From positions 1 through 37,172 of IMG/VR virus record IMGVR_UViG_3300030329_005240: a DNA stretch of 37,172 nt, one strand, 5' to 3'. The position numbers were made by a program, and so were the translations under genes. The stretch is from a virus. The notes under the pieces are model-generated. The model was given only the letters and a program-made list of their open reading frames with translations. It was not told where the DNA came from and searched no databases. The number at the start of each line of letters is the position of its first letter. The first letter of the stretch is position 1. This document shows, piece after piece, positions 12,676 through 37,172 of the stretch.

Positions 12676-12836
12676 TATTTTTTTACTTTTTTAACCTTAC
12701 TACGTTTTCTTCCATCTAATATTGGTGTAAATACTCCAAGTGCCTCAGTTTTGATAATATTTTTTTTTAACTCTTTTGTAACCACCATCTTTGGTTTTTT
12801 TTCTATCTTTTTTAATTTTTTATTCTTTTTATCCAA
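12675..12836 (-). CDS. Lys-rich small protein, TTG start (53 aa)
   Basis: Frame from TTG at 12836, preceded by AAGGAAAGGAAA, ending in a TAA that overlaps the terS ATG. About one third of residues are Lys (for example KKNKKLKKIEKK and SKVKKVKK at the two ends) with a short hydrophobic middle (ALGVFTPIL). It resembles small basic DNA-binding proteins that precede terS in some phages. The rare start and A-rich composition make it less certain, but the clean stop-start coupling supports it. Confidence 0.5.
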   Translation of the reverse strand: MDKKNKKLKKIEKKPKMVVTKELKKNIIKTEALGVFTPILDGRKRSKVKKVKK

Positions 12837-12940
12837 TTTAATTTCCTTTCCTTTATAAAAATATTGAACTAGATAATATAAAAAATATTTTTCAAAAATA
12901 AAAACCTTGCATAATTCATTTATTTGATTATATTTATTCT

Positions 12941-12991
12941 ATATAATAGAGAATATAATAGAGATACTATCTCTAGAGAATATCCCTATTA
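12941..12991. repeat. 12-bp repeats with inverted copies (operator/iteron-like)
   Basis: ATATAATAGAGA occurs twice in perfect tandem (12941-12952, 12953-12964). Read as units these are TAATAGAGAATA (12944) and TAATAGAGATAC (12956). They are followed by inverted relatives, TAGAGATA on the minus strand near 12968-12975 and TAATAGGGATAT (12991-12980). Overlapping palindromes result: TAGAGAT-ACT-ATCTCTA (12959-12975) and TCTCTAGAGA (12970-12979). The arrangement suggests a cooperative protein-binding site upstream of the late -10 box. Confidence 0.6.
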
Positions 12992-13057
12992 GAAAGAAAA
13001 ATTAATAATAAAAAGAAAGTTGTTACATAGTTTCAAAAATAGGGTCAGAATGTGTGT

Positions 13058-13081
13058 GGGTGTTTCTTTATGCCGACACCC
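13058..13081. other. GGGTGT/ACACCC hairpin in the control region
   Basis: Six perfect G/C-rich base pairs (13058-13063 with 13076-13081) close a 12-base loop. It is followed by a C-run and lies in an otherwise AT-rich gap. It could be part of a packaging site or a small RNA. No U-run follows on either strand, so it is not an obvious terminator. Confidence 0.35.
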
Positions 13082-13190
13082 CCCATCAAAGTTCTTGGTT
13101 ACCCCTTCGATTAGGTTGAAAATTGGTTTTAAATTGAAATTATTTATAAAAAATAAAGATTTTACTAGTTTTAATAAGGAAGGAACACAA

Positions 13191-13217
13191 ACAAAAACGC
13201 CCTAACAAGTAGGGCGC
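13191..13217 (-). terminator. Rho-independent terminator of the small minus-strand operon
   Basis: Stem CGCCCTA (13198-13204) / TAGGGCG (13210-13216), 5-base loop, then a U-run from 13197-13193 in the minus-strand transcript. It lies 34 bp after the stop of the 58-aa gene, so it ends the 13250-13982 operon and insulates the late control region. Confidence 0.85.
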
Positions 13218-13249
13218 TATTGTAAACAATCGGCAATATTTAATATTAA

Positions 13250-13426
13250 CTAATTATTACACGCTTCTATAAATCTACGTTTATCAAAGTTATTATTATC
13301 ACATACAAATATATAGCTTAAATCATTTATTAAACTTGCTTTGTTTATAGATGTTTTATTATCTATTGTATTTGTATTATCTTTAATTGCTTGTGCTATA
13401 ACTCTATAATGTTTACGACTTAGCAT
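13250..13426 (-). CDS. Small conserved-type phage protein (58 aa)
   Basis: Starts MLSRKHYRVIAQAIKDN and ends KRRFIEACNN. This bracket (LSRKHY...IA at the N-terminus, F-x-R-x-x-F-I-x-A-C at the C-terminus) recurs in small early proteins of many phages, with unknown function. A near-perfect AAGGAGG lies 5 bp before the ATG. It is the last gene of the minus-strand early operon and is directly followed by the terminator. Confidence 0.75.
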   Translation of the reverse strand: MLSRKHYRVIAQAIKDNTNTIDNKTSINKASLINDLSYIFVCDNNNFDKRRFIEACNN

Positions 13427-13437
13427 TTGAACCTCCT

Positions 13438-20056: not shown

Positions 20057-20859
20057 TTAAAGTACAAAGTCCAATAGATATTGAGGGAGTTTACGAAGAA
20101 TATCTTGATGAATTACAAGAGAAAAATAGAAAAGAAAGATACGAGGGTAATGAGCATTGGTATCACGCATCTGGAGCAGGCTCTTGTTCAAGGAAATTGT
20201 ATTTTGAATCAGTAGAAATGGTACAGCCAACCAATTTAATAGACCAAAGAACAAAAAGACTGTTAAATTTGGGTAACTTAGTGCATGAAGACATACAAAA
20301 TTCTCTTACGCGCACACGTAATAGAGATAATAATATAGATACTAATATAGATACTAATAGAGATTCTCTAATAGAAAAAGAAATTAAAAATAAAGAAAAA
20401 GAAACTGAGTTTTTAGTTGAAGGTGAGATTAAAATAGAAGAATTAAATGTTAGAGGTTTCTATGATATTGTTGCAAAACAGAGCGTAGGTGAGCAACAAA
20501 TTTATTTGTATGACATAAAAACTTGTGGTGGTTGGTCATGGAAAATGAAATTTGGTAGAAATAAAAAAATTAATACAAGTATACACTATGAGTTGCAGTT
20601 AGGTACTTATGGGTATGCTATACAAAAACAATTCGGTCAGTTAAATGGTATGTACCTTTATTATTACAATAAAGATGATTCACAAATGAGAGCTGTACAA
20701 GTTCCATTGACATATGTATCAAGAGCATATCTTTTCTGGCGGAATATAAACGATGAACATAAACAAGGATTACCTGACTTTAGAACTGGGGTTTCACCTG
20801 TTCAAAAATGGCAGTGCAACTATTGTCAGTTTAAAGACCATTGTAATCCACCAAGATAG
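20053..20859 (+). CDS. Cas4-like PD-(D/E)XK nuclease with Fe-S cysteines (268 aa)
   Basis: C45 in GSCSRKLYFE, H78 in NLVHED, D138 in GFYD, D154-I-K156 in YDIKTC and Q182 in LQLGTYGYA outline the RecB/Cas4 nuclease fold. C255, C258 and C264 in CNYCQFKDHC together with C45 make the four ligands of a 4Fe-4S cluster. It is likely a 5'-3' ssDNA exonuclease that prepares ends for the annealing protein encoded next. Start is GTG at 20053, overlapping the RHH stop. Residues 90-105 are an N(R/I)D(N/T/S) repeat made by four 12-bp DNA repeats, unusual in this family. Confidence 0.8.
   Translation: MIKVQSPIDIEGVYEEYLDELQEKNRKERYEGNEHWYHASGAGSCSRKLYFESVEMVQPTNLIDQRTKRLLNLGNLVHEDIQNSLTRTRNRDNNIDTNIDTNRDSLIEKEIKNKEKETEFLVEGEIKIEELNVRGFYDIVAKQSVGEQQIYLYDIKTCGGWSWKMKFGRNKKINTSIHYELQLGTYGYAIQKQFGQLNGMYLYYYNKDDSQMRAVQVPLTYVSRAYLFWRNINDEHKQGLPDFRTGVSPVQKWQCNYCQFKDHCNPPR
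20319..20366. repeat. Four contiguous 12-bp repeats inside the nuclease gene
   Basis: TAATAGAGATAA (20319), TAATATAGATAC (20331), TAATATAGATAC (20343) and TAATAGAGATTC (20355) lie head to tail, and a weaker fifth follows. They share the consensus of the repeats at 12944-12967. Since 12 bp equals four codons, the protein frame is kept. They could be iterons of an origin or an operator, or products of slippage. Confidence 0.65.
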
Positions 20860-25829: not shown

Positions 25830-26297
25830 ATGATGGATATATATAAACTTGTAGGCAAGAATGCCTTAATACAGAAAGGGGATAGTTGGATGCCATTAGC
25901 AGAGGGATATTGCAAAGAATATGATTTGCATGTAAAGGAAGATATGTTGTTTGGTAAGATTGGGGAAGAATTTACTGAAAAGCTATTTGAAGGTAACACA
26001 AAAATAGAAATAAAAACAGAGCGAGATATTTGGAAAAATACAGGAAATATTGCCATTGAAATTCGCTGTAAAGGTAAACCATCAGGTATTTCTACAACAA
26101 CATCAAGCATATGGATGCATTTATTGGCTTATAAAGGGGTCATAGAGGGCGGATTTATATTAAAGGTAGATAAGCTTAAGGATAAGATAAAAAAGCTCCA
26201 AAAAAGCGGTAATTTAAAAATGGTCATGGGTGGAGATTTTAACGAAAGTCAAATGGTATTGCTACCAATTAAGGAATTATTTGGGAGAAATTCCTAG
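25830..26297 (+). CDS. PD-(D/E)XK-like nuclease (155 aa)
   Basis: A core at residues ~40-105 contains GKIGEEFTEKLF, then KIEIKTERDIW (E-x-K like) and NIAIEIRCKGKPSGISTTTSS, similar to phage restriction-endonuclease-fold proteins with a KPSGIS loop. It may cleave branched or host DNA. The ATG at 25830 (or 25833) is taken. A TTG at 25821 would add three residues. No SD is evident, so it may be coupled to the gene before. Last gene of the early block, ending 21 bases inside the giant late gene on the other strand. Confidence 0.65.
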   Translation: MMDIYKLVGKNALIQKGDSWMPLAEGYCKEYDLHVKEDMLFGKIGEEFTEKLFEGNTKIEIKTERDIWKNTGNIAIEIRCKGKPSGISTTTSSIWMHLLAYKGVIEGGFILKVDKLKDKIKKLQKSGNLKMVMGGDFNESQMVLLPIKELFGRNS

Positions 26298-29200
26298 TTT
26301 ATCCCATGTACTAGAATGTATTTTTGACCAATATTTTTTATAATCATCTTGTTTATAATTCTTTCTTAAAAAATAACTCCATTGCTTTTCCCATACCTTG
26401 ATTCTTGCATCAAAAACAATTTCTTGTTTTAAAGCTCTTATTACATAAGGAGAGGTATTTACCTTATTCTGAATTGATTCATTTATATTTCCTTTAATAA
26501 TATTTGCCTTGTCTTGCTCTGTTAAAGGATTTTTATCTTTACCTTGTTTAACTGCTTTTTCTTTCAAGTATAAGAAATACCTCATTCTTTCAGAAAACCA
26601 CTTTGTTCCTTTTTTTCTACCAACACCATTTAATATAGGATTAAGAGAAACTATTTTCTGATTTATGGCTTGAGTTGCCTTTTGGGCTGCTCCATCTGGA
26701 GTCTCATTTCCAGTTTCAATAGCATCATGATATTTATTCCACCATGCTCCAATTACTGTTTCATTAAAAAGATTCATATTGTCAGACATTTCAAAAGCTT
26801 CCTTCATTGCCCTATACTCATCAGCCATTACGCTTGCTTCAGCAACTGGGTTATAGGAAATAGGCTTAACTTCTTTTTTATATGTTCTTTCATTTGAATC
26901 AATCTCTTGCTGAATTTTATAATATTTATTATTCCTATTTAAAAAAGTTTGTCTCCAATCTCTGTATGCTCCAGATATTGCCTTCCCTAAATCAACTCCA
27001 GATTGTTGCCATGTTTTTGTTTTCATAAGGTATCTTGAAAAGGAATTCGTATCTATATCGCTAGATTTTTCTGCAGCAATTTGCAATAATCCTAGTACAA
27101 ATGCGTATACTTCCTTACCTTGTTGGATAGCAGGCGCAGGTAAATAAGGATTCGATAATGGGTTTACCCCAGCTATTACACCCCAAATCCATGAATGTAT
27201 AGCACCCTGCTCCATGTTATGTAATTTTCTAGCCCATTTTTTCCAAAAAACTGTATCAAGCTCTCCAGGGTCAGGAGCATGCTTCAAAAGTGTGTTTATT
27301 GCTAGCAATGCGCTTGAACCAAGACCTATTGTGCCAAAATACTGAGCAAATCTATGCCAGTTTTTATTTTTATAATTTTCTTTAAATCCATTATAAAGTT
27401 TATGGGATGCGCTTATAGCAGTTTGAGAATATAGTGCCATTGATTTAATAAGTGGCTGACTCATAGCCCATGGTTGGAATATAGGTTCAATTGTTCCTTG
27501 TGTTTGCTGATGAGCTTGCATAAGGATTTTTGAATGAAGATTATCTATTTTTCTTTGTTTCTTTGCTCTTTCAAAAGCTGTCATTTCTGAACCATCAACC
27601 ATTTTAAATCTTTTTGCTTTAACTCCCTTTTTTGCTATTGAGCCTTCATTTTGCCAATCTACATCGACATCACTAAGCCCATATTTTTTAAGAAGGCTTA
27701 TATCGCTATCACCATCAGAATCTTTTATATCTCTCAAAAGGTAATGGCTTTCCGCTCTTCTTATCCACTTAGGGTCTGCTCTTCTTATGCCATCTACCAT
27801 CATCGGTAGCTCTGCTAAGGCTAGATATATAGATGTAGTTCTTCCTATTTCTTCTGACGTTGGAAATCTTCCTGTTGTAAACATTTTTTCAAATATTTTT
27901 GACAAATAATTATTATCACCTTCTGTAATAGCTGTATAGCTTATCCCCATCATGCCTGTTTCCTTGGCTTCCATTCTTCTTTGAAAATCCATTGCTTTTT
28001 GCTGATAATATAATACTTGAGGGAGGTCATACATAAGAGAGTTCATATTTAATGCCAATAAAAAGTTTTTAATTGGAGATTTTATTGTTGTTAAATTTGC
28101 CCTAACTAAATATTTATTTAAAGAACTTATTAGACCAGCTGAAGCATTTATCATAGGATGTGTTTCAGAATTAGAATCAATACGAAGACCTGTTCTTGAT
28201 GAAATCATGCTATTTACATAATTACCAATAACTCCGCCTTTTAAACTAACCTCTGCAAGAACTTTAGGTAATGAGGAGTTAAATTTCATTCCAGGTATTT
28301 TTACAAGATAAGGAAAATGCTCAATATTAGCTATTAGTTTTGCTTGAGATGCTATATAGTTTGGGATATAATTATCATATTTATTTTCATAAACGTCTAT
28401 CCATTTCCCTTTTTTTGTTTTAATTCTTTCACCTAGATATACTTTTCTTCTAAGAAGATGTCTTGGATTATATCTTTTTCCACCATAGCTTTGTTCTGCG
28501 ACAATATCTTTATAAGCCTCGACAATACCTTTATCCTTAAACTCTTCCACTTGCTTTGATGTAACATTTTGTTTATTATATTTCTTTTGCGCCATTTCAG
28601 TAGCATATTTAATTGCTCCTTTTTCTAATCTTCTTTCAATATTCTGATTAGTCAAATCATACTCATCTCCAAATTTAGAGGTAATAGTACGAGGCACAAA
28701 GAAATTTTGCCTAATCCATTTTATTGGATACTTTTTATTAAATGATTTCCATTGAGCTTCTGTCATATTTGATTGAATGGAAAGTAAAACATTATCCATT
28801 ACATCTTTTCTCATTAATCTATAATATTCTTTTGCTATTTCACTTTCAAGGGTATCTATTCTTAATATAAGTTTTCCTTTATTTTCTTTTTTAGACATCT
28901 CTTTAATATTATAGACACCTTCATAGAATTTTTTTGCATCTTTAAGTCTTTTTGCAGCAACTTTATCAGATGGATTATTCTTGACATGTTCGACTAAATT
29001 TGGATACCTTTCTGGAGCAAGAGTCCATATATTATTTTTTACCTTTTTATCGAAGAACTTTTTCCCATACATATACATTCTTTTATTTCTTCTTGGAAGA
29101 GTTGTTGGTTGGTCTATCATTCTAATAGCAGTATTAATACCTTTTTTAACATGGTTTTTATATATTATTTTATAAACATTATGTTCAAATTGTCTAAGCT

Positions 29201-32200
29201 TTGCTCCCTGTACTGCTTCGGTTACTTGATGATTAACTAAATCATTTGAAATTTTATTAAGCTCTGGAGCATTAAGTTTTTTTGCAAGAAATTTAAATGC
29301 ATTGGGAACTTGTCCATAAAATCCAAAAGTAAGGAGAGCTGTTCTTGCAACGCCAGATGGTTTTTTAATATTAAAAAGTTGTCTTGATATTTTACCCATT
29401 GTTTCTGTATTTAATGCATTATTAACATATTCAAATCTATCCATATTTTTGATATTTGGATGAGCATGTATATAACTTAAATATTCTCTTGATTGGTCAT
29501 ACGTAAGATTAAGTTCACTTATTTTATCCAAAGGAGTATCTTGAGTATAAAACATATCTCTTATTAGCTCTTTTTGTGCATTTGCAGATATATTATTAAG
29601 CTCCATAATATCTCTTGCCTCAGTAACATTTTTAAGTGTTCTTGCAATCTGCTTTCTTTTGACAGCTTTCATTCTTTTTGTATCTATAATTTGGTCTGAA
29701 AATAAAATAAGTTCATCGGGAGAGGTTTTCTTATTTAATACAAAATTTGCATAATCTTCAATACCCGCAGATTGAGCGTAAAATCTCATTAGTTCCCCTT
29801 TTTCAGAGCTTTGCATATCTTTAGTAAGTTCATTCCAAACATTTTTAATAGAATTAACCAATTTTAATTTTACATCATCAGATAATTGAGCCTCAGCATC
29901 CTTGCTTGCATCTTTAACTGTTTTAATAACATCTTTATTTGATTTTCCACTAACATCTTCAATAGATAATCCAGGTTTTTTCAATCCTTCAACTACTTTT
30001 TCAATTCCTTTTGCTACTACATCGGTAATACCAGGTTCTTTCATAAATTCTTGTTTTGCTGCTTCTACTTTTTTAAGTACTTGCTCTTGAAGTTTAAATA
30101 AATCCCCCCAATTTTCTTGTTCTTTATAATATTTTAATATTGTTGGGTCTTTAGGCTCTGCGTGGCCAGCTATAACATTATAAACATCTAATTCAGATGG
30201 AGTTAGGTTTGCTTGTCTTTCTGCAAATGTTTTTTCTTGTTTTTTATATGCTTTTGAAGTCACATCCCCAACAACTTTTTTAGATACTGATGTTAATTTG
30301 TACGTAAAATCTGGGAATAATAACTTATTAGGATTTTTCTTTGCTAAACTTTGAAGCTCAAAAGCACGTTCTTTTGAAATCCATACTGGCCTTTTAACTC
30401 CTCTTGCTTTAGCAGCTCCACCTGCACTTCTAGGTTTGGTTAAATCTATATAATATTTACCTGTTGGAGGATGTATTTTTATATGAATTCCCTTTAAAGC
30501 ATTTAATTCCTCGGCTCTTATGGGAGTGCTTCCAATGATTTCAAAACCTTTTATAAAATTTTTATCATTTTTCATAGCCTTCTTAATCTGAGGAATTTTA
30601 TTAAACCAGGTTTTTAATTCAGGGAGCGGTTCTTTCTCAGCTGTCATAAGCTCGTTATATTCTGAGGTATATGCTTTTTGCATTTTAGCTGTCATGGGAT
30701 TTTTAGTAAGATAGCCTTCATCTATTAAATTTTGAAATATAAGCTTAATATTTGATGTTGTATTAGGGTCTATGCCTTTAATTTTTTTAGTTGGACTTTG
30801 TTTTGCTTTATCTAAATAATTTTTTACATCTTTCGATGTTATATCTGCTATACTTTTATGGCCAGATGCACCTAAAATTTTATTAACGATAGGAATTCTT
30901 TTATTTAATTCATTAGAAGAAAAGCTTTTAGTAAGCATTGCTATATCATAAGGATTTTTTATATTACTAACGGAAGCTTTTGATTTAACAATATTTGTTA
31001 ATTCATCTCCTTTAATATCTTTTGTTATTTCTTTGATTTGCGATGAAGTTTTTGGTATATTTTGTCCAACAGGCATCTCTTCTTTTATAACTTCTCTTAA
31101 TAATTCTTTTAATTCGGCTTTAGCTTCCTTGGCTCTCCCAAAACTTACAGATGGAATTTCTTTGGTTTCAATTCCTTCTTTTTTAGCATCAACTACGCTT
31201 TTTAATTCACCTTTTTCAATTCCTTGTTCTGCTGATTCTTTATCAATTGAAATAATATTACCATTTAAAGCTTTACCATTTTCATCAACAAGTATTACAT
31301 CTTTATTTTTTAAGTCTAATTCAGATGATTTGTCTTTTTTTATTTGCTCTTGAGGGCTAATACCTTCAAGAAGAGTTTTATTAATATCACTTTTAAGAAT
31401 ATCATATCTTTTAATTCTACTTTCTTGAGCTTTTAATACTGCTTTTCTTTGAATATCAGATAATGTTGTATTATTTTCCTTTTCATATCTTTTAATATAT
31501 TCTTGCTTTCCTTCATCTGTTTCAAAGTTTTTCAATCTATACCCTTGGTAAGCATTTAATCCAGTTGGAGTTATATAAGTTAAGTAAGCAATGTCATTTT
31601 CAGTCAATTTATCAATCTCTACACCAGTATACTCTCCATTATTATTTTTAATACCAGCTTTATCTAATATTTTTACAGTATTATCTACAATATTCCTAAG
31701 CTCTTTTAACCCATCAACAGTCTCAATTAGCTCTGTTTCTATACTTAAATCTTTATCAAAAAATTCAAAAGGAGTTTTGAGACCAAGCTCTCCTTTTATA
31801 TTGTTCATACTTTCTTGAAGCATATTACTTTCAGCACTTCTATAGTTTTTATCTATTAATTTATTATTTTCATACTTAATATCAGATACTATATTACTTT
31901 GTATTCTTCTTATCTCAGTTCCAAAATTAATATTTCTTGGAGCTGGCAGTCCTTCTATTTTCGCTCCTTTTTTTGTATGCCAATTCGGGTCATTATTGTA
32001 TTTATATTGAGTTTTAGGTATGAATAACTTGTTTATTCCCCAAAACATACCAATTACAGGATATGATACAAGATTATTAACAGCATATTTTTTCCACATA
32101 AAATTACCATCTTTATCATAGTATGATTTTCTTACTTCATCATCTAGAGCTATTGGCATAGTAGTGAAAATAGTACCTTGAATACCTAATTGAGATGGAG

Positions 32201-33371
32201 TACTACCTAATATCCTTGCTGAAAGAGTTTTTAGATTTTTTTGACCCATTTTCCATGAAGCATTACCCCATATATTTGCAACTCCAAGTGCTTGTCCAGT
32301 ACCTGTCAATAAAAACCCAGTTGTAGCTCCATCTTTAAATGACTTCCAAGAATCATTCATAGTATCCCATGGATTGATAGTTCCATTATTAGTAGAATAT
32401 TTCCCTCTATTCATTCTTTGTTGTGAAGCCGAATTTATAGCTCCAACAACAGCAGAAGCTCCTCCAAAACCAGATATTCCAAATGCAAGCTTATCAGAGC
32501 CTTCTCCCGCTACATAATCTAAAACTTTCTTTTTAATAGAATTTCCTGATTTACTTTTAGGTATAGATTTAACAGTATAGCTTCCTGTTGATTTTTGAAT
32601 CCATCTATTAATTGTCGATGGCATTGTCTTCAAACCTCTCCATGCTTTAGCACCGAATTTGCCACCTAATCCATAAGAGCCAAAAAAGGATAATATAGAT
32701 AATGGGTCGCTCATTGAGGCCATATTTTCTGCTATTATTTGAATTGCATTTGGATTATATTCTTCCATATTAACATCATAAATATCTTTTCCAGATTTTA
32801 TATTATAATGCATAGCAGGAATGCTTTGATTTAAACCAACTTTTATAGCATCTTTAAGTCCTTTATGTTTTGCTTTATCTAAATATGTCCAAGAATCTGG
32901 GTCAACAAGACTTTCAAAAATAGAGCCAACTTTACCAGTTTGTTCTACATAATCTGCTGTATTCATTAATATTGGAGAAGGAAAAGGAGGAGGATTTAAA
33001 TTTAATTCTTGTATTTCTTTAAAAGGTTTAGATTTAAGTTCTTCAGATAATTTTTGTGGACTAATATTTTTAGATTTAGCTAAATTAAGATAAGATACTT
33101 GTTCATTAGATATATCATCCATAGCATTAAAAATACTATTAACAGTATTTAAACTTGTATCTACTTGGCTTGAATCAGAAGGATAATCGTCTAATGTAGT
33201 TTTTACGTGTTTATATTCAGGTAAAGTAGAGTCAACAGACCTTGCTTTATTATATAAAAACTCTTTTTGCTGCTCTTCATTAAAACCTTTTGGGATTTGA
33301 TTTCCATAAAACTCTCTAGATATATCAATTATTGGCTGATAATCAAAATCTTTATATAATTCTTCAGACAT
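26277..33371 (-). CDS. Giant virion-associated (ejection/polyvalent-type) protein with an embedded tyrosine-recombinase-like domain (2364 aa)
   Basis: Layout: residues 1-210 soluble; ~215-500 Gly/Ala-rich hydrophobic segments (SILSFFGSYGLGGKFG, FLLTGTGQALGVANIWG); ~640-780 charged. A SAM-like core-binding unit lies at ~810-890 (ITSKDVKNYLDKAKQ). A tyrosine-recombinase-like catalytic unit lies at ~930-1090: R952 in TPIRAEEL, K988/K993, R1052 in FAERQ, H1070 in AGHAEP, Y1081/Y1082 in LKYYKE. The box II His is Phe1049. Residues ~1300-2364 form a large helical region with amphipathic or TM-like pieces near 2010-2070 (IGLGSSALLAINTLL). Size, place at the end of the virion block and the smaller neighbours fit an internal protein ejected with DNA, as T7 gp16. 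No lytic transglycosylase motif was found. Function of the recombinase unit is open. Confidence 0.8.
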   Translation of the reverse strand: MSEELYKDFDYQPIIDISREFYGNQIPKGFNEEQQKEFLYNKARSVDSTLPEYKHVKTTLDDYPSDSSQVDTSLNTVNSIFNAMDDISNEQVSYLNLAKSKNISPQKLSEELKSKPFKEIQELNLNPPPFPSPILMNTADYVEQTGKVGSIFESLVDPDSWTYLDKAKHKGLKDAIKVGLNQSIPAMHYNIKSGKDIYDVNMEEYNPNAIQIIAENMASMSDPLSILSFFGSYGLGGKFGAKAWRGLKTMPSTINRWIQKSTGSYTVKSIPKSKSGNSIKKKVLDYVAGEGSDKLAFGISGFGGASAVVGAINSASQQRMNRGKYSTNNGTINPWDTMNDSWKSFKDGATTGFLLTGTGQALGVANIWGNASWKMGQKNLKTLSARILGSTPSQLGIQGTIFTTMPIALDDEVRKSYYDKDGNFMWKKYAVNNLVSYPVIGMFWGINKLFIPKTQYKYNNDPNWHTKKGAKIEGLPAPRNINFGTEIRRIQSNIVSDIKYENNKLIDKNYRSAESNMLQESMNNIKGELGLKTPFEFFDKDLSIETELIETVDGLKELRNIVDNTVKILDKAGIKNNNGEYTGVEIDKLTENDIAYLTYITPTGLNAYQGYRLKNFETDEGKQEYIKRYEKENNTTLSDIQRKAVLKAQESRIKRYDILKSDINKTLLEGISPQEQIKKDKSSELDLKNKDVILVDENGKALNGNIISIDKESAEQGIEKGELKSVVDAKKEGIETKEIPSVSFGRAKEAKAELKELLREVIKEEMPVGQNIPKTSSQIKEITKDIKGDELTNIVKSKASVSNIKNPYDIAMLTKSFSSNELNKRIPIVNKILGASGHKSIADITSKDVKNYLDKAKQSPTKKIKGIDPNTTSNIKLIFQNLIDEGYLTKNPMTAKMQKAYTSEYNELMTAEKEPLPELKTWFNKIPQIKKAMKNDKNFIKGFEIIGSTPIRAEELNALKGIHIKIHPPTGKYYIDLTKPRSAGGAAKARGVKRPVWISKERAFELQSLAKKNPNKLLFPDFTYKLTSVSKKVVGDVTSKAYKKQEKTFAERQANLTPSELDVYNVIAGHAEPKDPTILKYYKEQENWGDLFKLQEQVLKKVEAAKQEFMKEPGITDVVAKGIEKVVEGLKKPGLSIEDVSGKSNKDVIKTVKDASKDAEAQLSDDVKLKLVNSIKNVWNELTKDMQSSEKGELMRFYAQSAGIEDYANFVLNKKTSPDELILFSDQIIDTKRMKAVKRKQIARTLKNVTEARDIMELNNISANAQKELIRDMFYTQDTPLDKISELNLTYDQSREYLSYIHAHPNIKNMDRFEYVNNALNTETMGKISRQLFNIKKPSGVARTALLTFGFYGQVPNAFKFLAKKLNAPELNKISNDLVNHQVTEAVQGAKLRQFEHNVYKIIYKNHVKKGINTAIRMIDQPTTLPRRNKRMYMYGKKFFDKKVKNNIWTLAPERYPNLVEHVKNNPSDKVAAKRLKDAKKFYEGVYNIKEMSKKENKGKLILRIDTLESEIAKEYYRLMRKDVMDNVLLSIQSNMTEAQWKSFNKKYPIKWIRQNFFVPRTITSKFGDEYDLTNQNIERRLEKGAIKYATEMAQKKYNKQNVTSKQVEEFKDKGIVEAYKDIVAEQSYGGKRYNPRHLLRRKVYLGERIKTKKGKWIDVYENKYDNYIPNYIASQAKLIANIEHFPYLVKIPGMKFNSSLPKVLAEVSLKGGVIGNYVNSMISSRTGLRIDSNSETHPMINASAGLISSLNKYLVRANLTTIKSPIKNFLLALNMNSLMYDLPQVLYYQQKAMDFQRRMEAKETGMMGISYTAITEGDNNYLSKIFEKMFTTGRFPTSEEIGRTTSIYLALAELPMMVDGIRRADPKWIRRAESHYLLRDIKDSDGDSDISLLKKYGLSDVDVDWQNEGSIAKKGVKAKRFKMVDGSEMTAFERAKKQRKIDNLHSKILMQAHQQTQGTIEPIFQPWAMSQPLIKSMALYSQTAISASHKLYNGFKENYKNKNWHRFAQYFGTIGLGSSALLAINTLLKHAPDPGELDTVFWKKWARKLHNMEQGAIHSWIWGVIAGVNPLSNPYLPAPAIQQGKEVYAFVLGLLQIAAEKSSDIDTNSFSRYLMKTKTWQQSGVDLGKAISGAYRDWRQTFLNRNNKYYKIQQEIDSNERTYKKEVKPISYNPVAEASVMADEYRAMKEAFEMSDNMNLFNETVIGAWWNKYHDAIETGNETPDGAAQKATQAINQKIVSLNPILNGVGRKKGTKWFSERMRYFLYLKEKAVKQGKDKNPLTEQDKANIIKGNINESIQNKVNTSPYVIRALKQEIVFDARIKVWEKQWSYFLRKNYKQDDYKKYWSKIHSSTWDKLGISPK

Positions 33372-33374
33372 ATT

Positions 33375-34481
33375 TTATTTATTCTTATACTCTTGTATAG
33401 CTCTTTCAAAAGCTCTTTCTTTTGCTCCTTCAATTACCATCTCATCGCCTGTCCAATGATAATATTTCTTTAATTCTTCTTGCATTGAAAAATATAAATT
33501 CTCTTCCTCAGATGACCACATATCTAAAACATCTTGAATAGTCATATCTTCATATTGGCTTAATTTTTCTTCAGCATAATTATCAAAATCCATAGGATTG
33601 CCATCTTTATCTTTAAACCATTCACTATCTTTATCTATATCATATTCAGATAATATTAAATCCATTGGAATATTTGCAGCATTAAATTTGTTTGACCCTT
33701 TTAATTCTTGTTTTGCAATAGCAATATCAAGTTGTTTTCTATATTTTTTAATAGAATTTAAAGATGACCTATATGATTTAACATTATTTTTAGTATTTGC
33801 TTTAACTTCTTTCATTCTATCTAGAAGCTTTTGTTTCTCCCCAGCTAAGACATAAAATGCTTCTTCTTCAGTAATAATATTTCCTGTAGTTAAAGCAGAT
33901 ATAGCTGTATTAATTATATCTTTATAATCTTTCATTTCATTTATTATTGAAATATCTTTTAACGGAGAATCGTTTTTTGATTTTATTCCTTTAGATATAT
34001 AGTGACCTGCAAATCTAACTGGCGTTTTCATATCAATAGGGTCTTCATACATTGAACTTAAAAAATCATCAACAAAATCTTGTTCATTCATAATATCCTT
34101 TAAAGTCCATGATTCAATATCTTTTGTTTCTAAACTTTTAACATAATTATATTTATCATAAGCATTATCTATTTGTTGTTTATAATTCATATAATCAGAA
34201 GTAGTTGTATTTAATTTAGAATCTGAACCAAGTTTATTTATAATAGCTTCAGGATTATCTTTAATAATAGGATTTAAACTATTAGATACTTGTATAGCTC
34301 CTTGTATATCTTGAGGTGTAGATATATTATCTATCAATTCATCAAAAGAATTAGTAATATTAATTTGTTTATCATTTTTTTCTTTTTCTTGTTGAATTGC
34401 TATTCTTTGCTGTCTATTGTTTTGAGCGTTTAGTATTGCTAGTAAACCACTAATAGTGCCTAGTCCTGCGTCTTGTGCCAT
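33375..34481 (-). CDS. Internal virion protein-like, coiled coil (368 aa)
   Basis: Starts MAQDAGLGTISGLLAIL, then a Gln/Arg/Lys-rich helix (NAQNNRQQRIAIQQEKEK) and a long all-helical acidic chain up to a C-terminal helix rich in Glu/Arg (AKERAFERAIQEYKNK). It resembles helical internal proteins that form a tube or coat the giant ejection protein. Ends 3 bp before the giant gene, so the two are made together. The family is not recognised. Confidence 0.65.
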   Translation of the reverse strand: MAQDAGLGTISGLLAILNAQNNRQQRIAIQQEKEKNDKQINITNSFDELIDNISTPQDIQGAIQVSNSLNPIIKDNPEAIINKLGSDSKLNTTTSDYMNYKQQIDNAYDKYNYVKSLETKDIESWTLKDIMNEQDFVDDFLSSMYEDPIDMKTPVRFAGHYISKGIKSKNDSPLKDISIINEMKDYKDIINTAISALTTGNIITEEEAFYVLAGEKQKLLDRMKEVKANTKNNVKSYRSSLNSIKKYRKQLDIAIAKQELKGSNKFNAANIPMDLILSEYDIDKDSEWFKDKDGNPMDFDNYAEEKLSQYEDMTIQDVLDMWSSEEENLYFSMQEELKKYYHWTGDEMVIEGAKERAFERAIQEYKNK

Positions 34482-34508: not shown

Positions 34509-35174
34509 TTAACTACCACCACCTGCTGGGAACCATGATTGCATAATCTCTTGGTTTGCAGTACTTTGGTCAATTAAAGATTGCATATAATCTTGTCTTT
34601 TCTTACCTTCTGATACTAATATATCTGAAGCTTTTTTACCGAATACATCTCTTGCTATTTGTCTCTTTTTGTCAGCAAATCCAGATGAAGCAAATCCTCC
34701 ACTTTTAACTTTTCCTAAATTACCTGCTAATTCACCTGTTAATGAACCAACTCCTAAATCTATTCCAGGTCTCATTGAGCCATATTGAGCACCCAATAAT
34801 TGCTGTATAGTAACGGGATTCATACTAAGACCAATTTCATGCCAAGTTGTTCCTTCTGGAGGCCCTCCACCAGTATATCCGAACATATTTGCAAGCCTTG
34901 CAGCTAACGCTTTAGCACCACTAGTCTCTGGAGTATAATCACCAGTTCCTGACCACATACCTTCATCTTCAGCACCAGCCCAATCTGCTCCAGCGCCAAA
35001 TGGAGCATTTCCTCTTGCAGACCAATCTTCTATTTTACTTCTACCATCTTCTAGAAAAGTAGTCAATAAATCACTATATGCTGCGCCATATGGAGCATCA
35101 GCTGTGCCACCAGAACCTATTACTCCCTCGCCAGTTCCCATACTTAATTGATGTATTAATTCTGCTAAAGTCAT
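34509..35174 (-). CDS. Virion-associated protein (221 aa)
   Basis: Gly/Ala/Ser-rich with segments such as GVIGSGGTADAPYGAAYSD and GIDLGVGSLTGELAGNLG. The C-terminal 60 residues are helical and basic (KKRQIARDVFGKKASDILV). No signal or catalytic motif. It sits in the cluster of internal virion proteins, 1 bp after the 302-aa gene, with a GGAG site at that junction. Likely a minor internal or tail component. Confidence 0.6.
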   Translation of the reverse strand: MTLAELIHQLSMGTGEGVIGSGGTADAPYGAAYSDLLTTFLEDGRSKIEDWSARGNAPFGAGADWAGAEDEGMWSGTGDYTPETSGAKALAARLANMFGYTGGGPPEGTTWHEIGLSMNPVTIQQLLGAQYGSMRPGIDLGVGSLTGELAGNLGKVKSGGFASSGFADKKRQIARDVFGKKASDILVSEGKKRQDYMQSLIDQSTANQEIMQSWFPAGGGS

Positions 35175-35175
35175 T

Positions 35176-36084
35176 TTATTCTCCTCCCTGTATCTGTGCT
35201 ATCAATGATGCTAATAAGTCTGCATCAGATAATGCGGTTTTTCCATATGCTGCGCCAGCACCTTCTCCATATGAAGCTAATAATCTCACTAAATCTCTTG
35301 TTCCAAGTCCTGATTCTGCTAATTGTCTATTGGTAGCTGACGGACTTACAGCTTGTTGAAACTTAGGTTGATAAACATCAGGAGCTGAAGCTTTATCAAT
35401 CGTAATATTTCTTGAATAAGGATTAACAGACGTTTCTGCTAATGATGGTTTTGGTACTTCTGGAGATATAAATTCGGGAGATGTTAAGCCACTTGGTTCT
35501 CCATAATCTCCATAAGCTAAATCAACATCGGGCTTAATTCCAATAGATGAATCGCTCACTTTAGGTAATTCTTTTGCTTCTTTTCCTTTCGATATTGATT
35601 TAGCTCCAGCTTGTAAAATTGCATCAGCAGCAAATGACTCAACAGCTGCTTTAACAGGGTCTAATGATGATATTTCATCTTGAGCTATATCTGAATATGA
35701 AGATATTAATTCATCAGCTAATGTTCCTTTTTTCATTTTATCTATTCTATCTTTTTCTTTCTTAAGCATATCTTCTGTTGATAAGGTAACTCCTCCTTTA
35801 GTTATTGCTCCTATTAAAGGCTTTAACCACCATTTACCCCCAGGTATGAACATTGAACCAAGAGAAAGAAGTCCACCAAGAAAACCTCTTCTTCTTCTTT
35901 TTCTATTCATCCTATCTCGTATTTTTTTTAACCCTTTTTCAACTTTTTTAATATGTTTGCCTTGCATTGACTTTTGTAGTAGAATATTCTGAATATTTTT
36001 TGAACGCTGAAGACCTTGGTCTCCATAACTTTGTACAATATTTTGAATATTTCCACCTTGATATGGATTATATCCGTTTGCCAT
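35176..36084 (-). CDS. Internal virion protein with a basic/hydrophobic centre (302 aa)
   Basis: Residues 45-75 are very basic (KKVEKGLKKIRDRMNRKRRRR) and run straight into a hydrophobic Gly-rich segment (GFLGGLLSLGSMFIPGG, WLKPLIGAITKGG), a pattern for membrane insertion or DNA contact. The rest is disordered Pro/Ser-rich with an Ala-rich helical end. It could help form the ejection channel, as internal proteins of T7-like phages do. GGAGATA precedes ATG at 36084. Confidence 0.65.
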   Translation of the reverse strand: MANGYNPYQGGNIQNIVQSYGDQGLQRSKNIQNILLQKSMQGKHIKKVEKGLKKIRDRMNRKRRRRGFLGGLLSLGSMFIPGGKWWLKPLIGAITKGGVTLSTEDMLKKEKDRIDKMKKGTLADELISSYSDIAQDEISSLDPVKAAVESFAADAILQAGAKSISKGKEAKELPKVSDSSIGIKPDVDLAYGDYGEPSGLTSPEFISPEVPKPSLAETSVNPYSRNITIDKASAPDVYQPKFQQAVSPSATNRQLAESGLGTRDLVRLLASYGEGAGAAYGKTALSDADLLASLIAQIQGGE

Positions 36085-36149: not shown

Positions 36150-36824
36150 TCAGAAATTACATCCAAAAAATGTTGCATTATCTGCTGTTACTGCTTCAGT
36201 TACATCTAAATATGGGTCTTTACTTGTTCCTGTATTGTTCGCATAATATGCACCTGAGCGATTATTAGCTGAAGGCTGTATATCCCTCATATCGTGTACT
36301 GATTCCATGCACATAATTTTAAATGTACTAACACTTGCTATTTGACTTAAAGCAGCAGCATTTAAAGTTATGGAATTATATCCTGATATATTCCAACTTG
36401 TAACCTCATCTGAATATTTAGTTACATAACTTTCTATATCTCCTGCCCCTGAACCATCGTAACTAGCAGGTGCACCACTTAAAACCATAGCATCAAAATC
36501 TCCTGTGCCTAATGTCGAACCTTGATTTGATGCAATAACAAAAAAATCACCACTAGAAGCACTCAATCCATATATATTTAATGTTGCAGCAGTAGGAGTT
36601 TCACTTATACTAGATGTATCAAACTCAAAAAAACTTCTTGTGTTTACATATAAGGTTGCTCCAGTCCTAGGTAAATATACTTCACCCGACTGTATGGCAA
36701 AATTATAAGAATTACTTGTTGAGGAAGCAGTATTCCCCGTAGTCAATGCCTTTGCAGTTGCCCAATTAACTGTACTAAAACCTCTTACATATCCATCATT
36801 ATTACCTGAGTAGATTATAGCCAT
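36150..36824 (-). CDS. Beta-rich fibre/adhesin-like protein (224 aa, DNRLRE-like)
   Basis: Starts with GNNDGYVRGFSTVNWATAKALT and goes on with RSFFEFDTSSISETPTAATL, a sequence style like the DNRLRE (DxxLR) beta-sandwich domain used in surface and fibre proteins (F-E-F-D-T-S-S-I-x-x-x-P-x-x-A-x-L-x-I). It is translationally coupled to the fibre (TAATG) and may be a second fibre part or tip. Host range role inferred. A C-terminal GCNF gives one free Cys. Confidence 0.65.
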   Translation of the reverse strand: MAIIYSGNNDGYVRGFSTVNWATAKALTTGNTASSTSNSYNFAIQSGEVYLPRTGATLYVNTRSFFEFDTSSISETPTAATLNIYGLSASSGDFFVIASNQGSTLGTGDFDAMVLSGAPASYDGSGAGDIESYVTKYSDEVTSWNISGYNSITLNAAALSQIASVSTFKIMCMESVHDMRDIQPSANNRSGAYYANNTGTSKDPYLDVTEAVTADNATFFGCNF

Positions 36825-37172
36825 TAAAACTGAAAATCCAAACTTGCTACGCCATAAGCTATTTCATTATCAGCATCCCAAAAAATTGAAATAATATCGA
36901 CATGGTTAGCATCTGTTGTTAATGTTGGATTACTACCTCCTGCAAATTTAACTGTTGAACTACCATTTGCTGCATTTCCTGCACTATCTAATGCCTTATA
37001 ATTAGTAATTAATCTACTTCCTGTACCATCTTGCTTTAATAATACTACAAAATTACCTGAAACTGCAGGGAATTTTAAGTTTAAATCTGTTATATCTCCA
37101 CTTCCAAAAGTCACAAATTGTTTATTTCCTGTCTTGAAATCAACATTTGTATTAGCTACATTATATGTAGGT
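36824..37172 (-). CDS. Tail fibre, C-terminal 115 residues (runs off the right edge)
   Basis: The minus-strand frame is open from the right edge with no start codon needed: PTYNVANTNVDFKTGNKQFV precedes a GTG at 37114 that could otherwise be taken as a start. The segment is a compact beta domain (FPAVSGNFVVLLKQDGTGSR, VDIISIFWDADNEIAYGVAS) as seen at fibre C-termini. The codon split across the ends (TT + A) gives Leu and keeps the frame with the fibre at 1-1322. Ends in TAATG overlap with the next gene. Confidence 0.75.
   Translation of the reverse strand, partial: PTYNVANTNVDFKTGNKQFVTFGSGDITDLNLKFPAVSGNFVVLLKQDGTGSRLITNYKALDSAGNAANGSSTVKFAGGSNPTLTTDANHVDIISIFWDADNEIAYGVASLDFQF

Follow-up and report, generated by a model that had tools for sequence, protein, structure and literature searches.

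A tyrosine-recombinase-like domain embedded in a giant late protein of an uncultured phage and its relatives

Introduction

Several phage proteins that accompany DNA into the host, or that share the size and gene context of such proteins, have been described. The virion RNA polymerase of N4 is injected with the DNA (PMC12633501), and gp44 of 80alpha, which is also injected with the DNA, binds DNA ends and has been proposed to promote circularisation (PMC7290940). Polyvalent proteins are giant phage proteins that are often processed by metallopeptidases (PMC5512222). Virion-carried RNA polymerases are known, but among the open-licence papers searched we found none describing a virion-carried tyrosine recombinase; the words 'recombinase' and 'integrase' are absent from the text of the polyvalent-protein survey (PMC5512222).

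Here we analyzed an entire IMG/VR virus record of 37172 bases (hereafter, the window), in which a preliminary description, made from the sequence alone, had placed a tyrosine-recombinase-like domain inside a virion-type protein of 2364 amino acids. The protein resembles the N4-type virion RNA polymerase and the T7 and P22 ejection proteins in being very large and encoded in a late cluster with late genes directly upstream; unlike these, it has no match to an RNA polymerase or transglycosylase family and contains a recombinase fold instead. As with the polyvalent proteins (Iyer et al. 2017, PMC5512222), the protein is giant and multidomain, its gene lies in a virion-gene context, and in relatives an HExxH motif accompanies the domain, although the window and its clade lack such a zincin-like motif. 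The likeness to 80alpha gp44 lies in the proposed function, namely handling and circularising the incoming genome, whereas gp44 is proposed to work by end binding and its virion gene arrangement differs from that of the window (PMC7290940). The domain itself shares the core-binding and catalytic fold of the tyrosine recombinases (XerC/XerD/XerA, Cre and lambda Int; PF00589 with Phage_int_SAM), as well as the order and spacing of Arg-I, Glu, the Lys of the β-hairpin, Gly-His and Tyr. In contrast to these enzymes, it is embedded in a late protein of 2.1-2.8 kaa, carries Lys at Arg-II and His-II in the window, and gives no integrase match when the window sequence is searched alone.

Results

Gene setting of the giant protein

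The window contains a minus-strand late cluster with the small and large terminase subunits, a P22-like portal, an SU10-type capsid and structural-looking genes, and a plus-strand early side that codes for a PD-(D/E)XK nuclease, a Sak annealing protein, a DNA methylase and a DnaB-type helicase. Neither tRNA genes nor Rfam matches were found in the window. The giant gene and its upstream neighbours are as follows.

26277..33371, minus strand: giant 2364-aa ORF, a single unbroken frame of 7.1 kb with homologues of 2.1-2.8 kaa on independent contigs; probable ejected or internal virion protein
33375..34481, minus strand: 368-aa protein directly upstream of the giant gene, candidate partner ejection protein; its homologue adjoins the giant gene in the two nearest relatives (L093 and L092)
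34509..35174, minus strand: 221-aa late protein; in L099 its homologue also lies upstream of the giant gene
35176..36084, minus strand: 302-aa late protein; in L099 its homologue also lies upstream of the giant gene

The 368-aa protein had no family match in Pfam or PHROGs. The giant gene is placed among late genes, and in some relatives homologues of its upstream neighbours adjoin it as well, so that by analogy its neighbourhood resembles ejection-protein loci. Judging from gene position and size, the giant protein is probably a virion-packaged internal (ejection) protein.

Open frames overrun both ends of the record (1-1322 and 36824-37172) and form a continuous frame if the ends are joined. 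Such continuity would fit a circularly permuted genome, and the chance of its arising by coincidence is one in three.

Predicted fold of the embedded domain

We predicted the structure of residues 780-1110 with AlphaFold2, using an alignment of six homologous regions, and obtained a model with a mean pLDDT of 87.4 and a pTM of 0.61. In this model, a helical domain is followed by helices, three strands and helices, which is the order of the Int catalytic domain. The two parts are located as follows.

30636..30953, minus strand: core-binding (SAM-like) helical domain, residues ~807-912, from the AlphaFold2 helices and from Pfam Phage_int_SAM_4 and SAM_1 matches in relatives
30045..30617, minus strand: tyrosine-recombinase-like catalytic domain, residues ~919-1109, from AlphaFold2, Foldseek against the PDB, hhalign and a clade-excluded HMM

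When the model was compared with the PDB using Foldseek, the top match was Cre (E = 7.6e-5, probability 1.00), and each of the top 44 matches was a tyrosine recombinase, a telomere resolvase or a topoisomerase IB (Cre and its derivatives, XerA, XerH, XerD, lambda Int, Tn1549 Int, an integron integrase, TelA and topoisomerase IB). Phage integrases were matched in the viral library BFVD. The TM-scores were only ~0.5 and the identity to the PDB matches was 11-17%, which indicates distant homology. Together with the sequence profiles described below, the model gives good support to the view that residues ~807-1110 form a tyrosine-recombinase (Int/Xer/Cre) fold, a core-binding domain followed by a catalytic domain. 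The preliminary description had proposed the same two-part arrangement at residues ~810-1090, and the predicted structure does contain the Int fold.

Sequence-profile evidence and controls

As a single sequence, the window giant protein matched no integrase family in Pfam or PHROGs. Using hhalign, the aligned region was compared with a profile of XerC, XerD, Cre, lambda Int, FimB and FimE, and a probability of 94.8% was obtained (E = 5e-8). As a control, nineteen overlapping stretches of 331 residues along the giant protein, built from the same five sequences, were compared with the canonical recombinases in the same way; only the stretches overlapping residues ~771-1101 scored, all others remaining at or below 3%. 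Reversed and column-shuffled control alignments gave no score against the canonical recombinases. The confinement of the score to one region and the failure of the controls indicate that the recombinase match goes beyond chance.

A profile of 13 family members searched against PDB sequences found XerA first (E = 1.1e-5), followed by XerD and a XerC-like protein (0.015-0.036), whereas the six-member profile alone gave no significant recombinase match there. PHROG integrase families matched 5-6 of the 13 members, and in one relative (L144) two phage-integrase SAM-like domains scored above their curated Pfam cut-offs. Moreover, a profile built without the window's clade matched window residues 836-1115 in a small database of giant proteins (E = 5e-21). 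Pfam matches of the recombinase-like region to DUF4522 and DUF4391 fell below the curated cut-offs and were set aside.

Relatives of the giant protein

Starting from relatives of the terminase, we reached contigs that carry a giant ORF of ~1.7-2.8 kaa, some of them cut by the contig end, and further family members were added through searches with alignments. In all 13 aligned giants, the region matching residues 780-1125 is Int-like by inspection, in two arrangements, of which the canonical one is backed by the profile test and the second by profile comparison only. Wherever a related record has its giant gene intact, the ORF is late-oriented and the domain lies in mid-protein. Compared with L082, the nearest relative, the window shows 64% identity in the domain and 41% in the rest of the protein; in the other relatives, the domain is no better conserved than the remaining protein.

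No PF00589 match was found outside the giant ORFs in 26 records (the window and 25 related records, which are possibly fragments), whereas all 14 control genomes were matched; the earlier remark that the window has no stand-alone integrase thus agrees with the profile search. A tblastn search of isolate phages with the window giant protein, three relatives and two relative domains as queries gave no match, and GTDB genome contigs searched with the giant protein and the terminase contained no relative. Neither a host nor a cultured relative was found by these searches.

Downstream of the recombinase-like region, a metallopeptidase-like HExxH motif (mostly PHEVSH) was found in the remaining giants that were checked (L096, L103, L107 and L130-L147), at a frequency that is biased since part of the sample was gathered by a pattern including the motif. 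It is absent from the window giant and its clade.

Active-site residues

Conservation was assessed in 13 regions with 16-21% identity to the first, save one near-duplicate at 96%. Only five columns are invariant: Arg-I (R952), Glu (E955), a hairpin Arg (R994), Gly-His (H1070) and Tyr (Y1082). The positions of the presumed active site are as follows.

30516..30518, minus strand: R952, Arg-I, invariant in 13/13 family regions, codon checked
30507..30509, minus strand: E955, Glu at Arg-I +3, part of the catalytic set, invariant in 13/13
30408..30410, minus strand: K988, β-hairpin catalytic Lys, invariant in the window clade and matching the XerD hairpin Lys by motif
30252..30254, minus strand: K1040, box-II His position changed from His to Lys, from clade conservation and the clade-excluded profile alignment
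30243..30245, minus strand: K1043, Arg-II position changed from Arg to Lys, from the clade-excluded HMM alignment, gap-free to Gly-His
30162..30164, minus strand: H1070 (Gly-His), His/Trp-III, invariant in 13/13
30126..30128, minus strand: Y1082, presumed nucleophile Tyr, invariant in 13/13

The domain and its giant host protein, as first described, are borne out by the predicted structure, the profiles and the conservation of Arg-I, Glu, Gly-His and Tyr throughout the family, and the homologues bear equally on the individual residues. R952 as Arg-I, K988 as the hairpin Lys and H1070 as His/Trp-III all hold, as do the ORF and the codons. Within the Tyr pair 1081/1082, Y1082 is conserved and Y1081 is not the conserved Tyr. 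R1052, previously taken as the second catalytic Arg, lies at the C-terminal end of its helix and varies among homologues, the Arg-II position being K1043; similarly, the box-II His was thought to be replaced by Phe (F1049), but the clade-excluded profile places this position at K1040. The set of catalytic residues first listed lacked E955.

Of the 13 regions, four have Lys at the Arg-II position (the window, L125, L126 and L128) and the other nine have Arg; the His-II position, Lys in the window, is variable and often acidic in the relatives. Lys at Arg-II is tolerated in Cre, where R292K stays active, and a small minority of natural recombinases have it (PMC4499138); activity may therefore be retained. 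From these alignments, the active site of the window appears weakened or variant rather than clearly dead, and the Lys at Arg-II weighs against calling the domain a standard active recombinase but leaves homology untouched. Catalysis is likely in the family as a whole and uncertain in the window's own protein, which may well be less active or do no more than bind DNA.

A second arrangement of the catalytic domain

In ten related proteins (L130-L140, residues ~670-1060), a core-binding domain, a hairpin Lys and a GE-R--R motif appear in the usual order, as does the Tyr in nine of the ten, and an Arg-I-like TGPRLNE helix follows the Tyr. The part up to the Tyr matched the 13-member family profile at 95.6%, and the structural model is confident over the catalytic part. 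A Foldseek search with this model returned weak recombinase matches (best E = 0.04, probability ~0.3), and a search of PDB sequences gave no recombinase match. We tentatively suggest from the motif order and the model that the catalytic domain of this subgroup may be circularly permuted, next to the HExxH peptidase-like motif; because the Foldseek support is weak and the PDB sequence search was empty, the permutation is a lead rather than a result.

Candidate sites in the DNA

A sequence search for a core site resembling lox, att or dif revealed no clear one, and AT-rich palindromes only. At 12941-13022, in an intergenic position upstream of the small terminase gene, there is an AT-rich element whose repeats read approximately TAATAGAGATA; a second copy with ~75% identity lies at 20330-20401, inside the PD-(D/E)XK nuclease ORF and upstream of the Sak gene. 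Each copy is found again in several relatives, and some versions of the element are nearly palindromic. The element might be an origin, an operator or a recombination site. A stretch of 762 bases without an assigned gene (12676-13437) is conserved among relatives, parts of it at about 70-90% DNA identity.

Discussion

We propose that the giant protein acts as an injected DNA-end or circularisation enzyme, which in the window's clade would be weakened or would bind DNA only; we give this reading a probability of about 0.48. As an internal (ejection) protein, it would enter the host with the phage DNA, and its central tyrosine-recombinase module would grip the incoming linear genome. In the family as a whole, strands would be cut and rejoined via covalent phosphotyrosine, and the DNA, presumably terminally redundant, would be circularised or resolved early, before phage gene expression. 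In most relatives, the HExxH peptidase-like motif just downstream may release the module proteolytically. Activity would probably be weaker in the window's clade, or the module there would only bind and bridge DNA ends, because Arg-II and His-II are Lys and the HExxH motif is gone. Several observations count against a circularisation enzyme: the two Lys residues in the window, the lack of a clear core site and the TM-scores of ~0.5, as well as the possibility that the phage's own Sak annealing protein and PD-(D/E)XK nuclease could circularise terminally redundant DNA.

The same substitutions are what a catalytically dead relic would predict, in which the Int fold would survive as a module of the ejectosome that binds DNA or bridges its ends, and that protects or tethers the genome without cutting it. 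Such a relic would agree with the loss of HExxH in the same clade, with the presence of the phage's own annealing recombination genes and with the proposal that gp44 of 80alpha works through end binding alone (PMC7290940). However, Tyr, Arg-I, Glu and Gly-His are invariant over the 13 regions at 16-21% identity, beyond what pure binding needs, Arg-II is kept in nine relatives, and the R292K form of Cre retains activity (PMC4499138). We consider a catalytically dead relic less likely, if still a serious contender.

The lack of an obvious specific site in the DNA would also suit a topoisomerase-like swivelase, which would nick and reseal the entering DNA without sequence-specific strand exchange and relieve torsion during ejection or early transcription. 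Type IB topoisomerase has the same fold and chemistry (1sc7, Foldseek rank 38; PMC4499138), but recombinases possessing a core-binding domain head the fold matches, and we regard this role as improbable. An ordinary temperate-phage integrase fused by chance into the giant ORF, although it would account for the sole Int-like domain found in the genome, is very improbable given the mid-protein position in a late-oriented giant ORF in all related records with an intact giant gene, the empty search of GTDB contigs with the giant protein and terminase, and the absence of any visible att site.

Returning to the injected DNA-end or circularisation enzyme, the fuller proposition that a widespread group of uncultured phages would package and inject a tyrosine recombinase within a giant ejection protein, with a naturally circularly permuted catalytic domain in one subgroup, is one that we put forward as doubtful at this stage. 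The circular permutation, if real, would be a natural experiment on how far an active site tolerates rearrangement. Injection of the giant protein would explain how entering DNA ends are handled in phages in which no PF00589 integrase was found, and would add a recombinase to the domains with which phages preload their particles. If this is true, the cleavage and rejoining of DNA strands would be among the first enzymatic events of infection.
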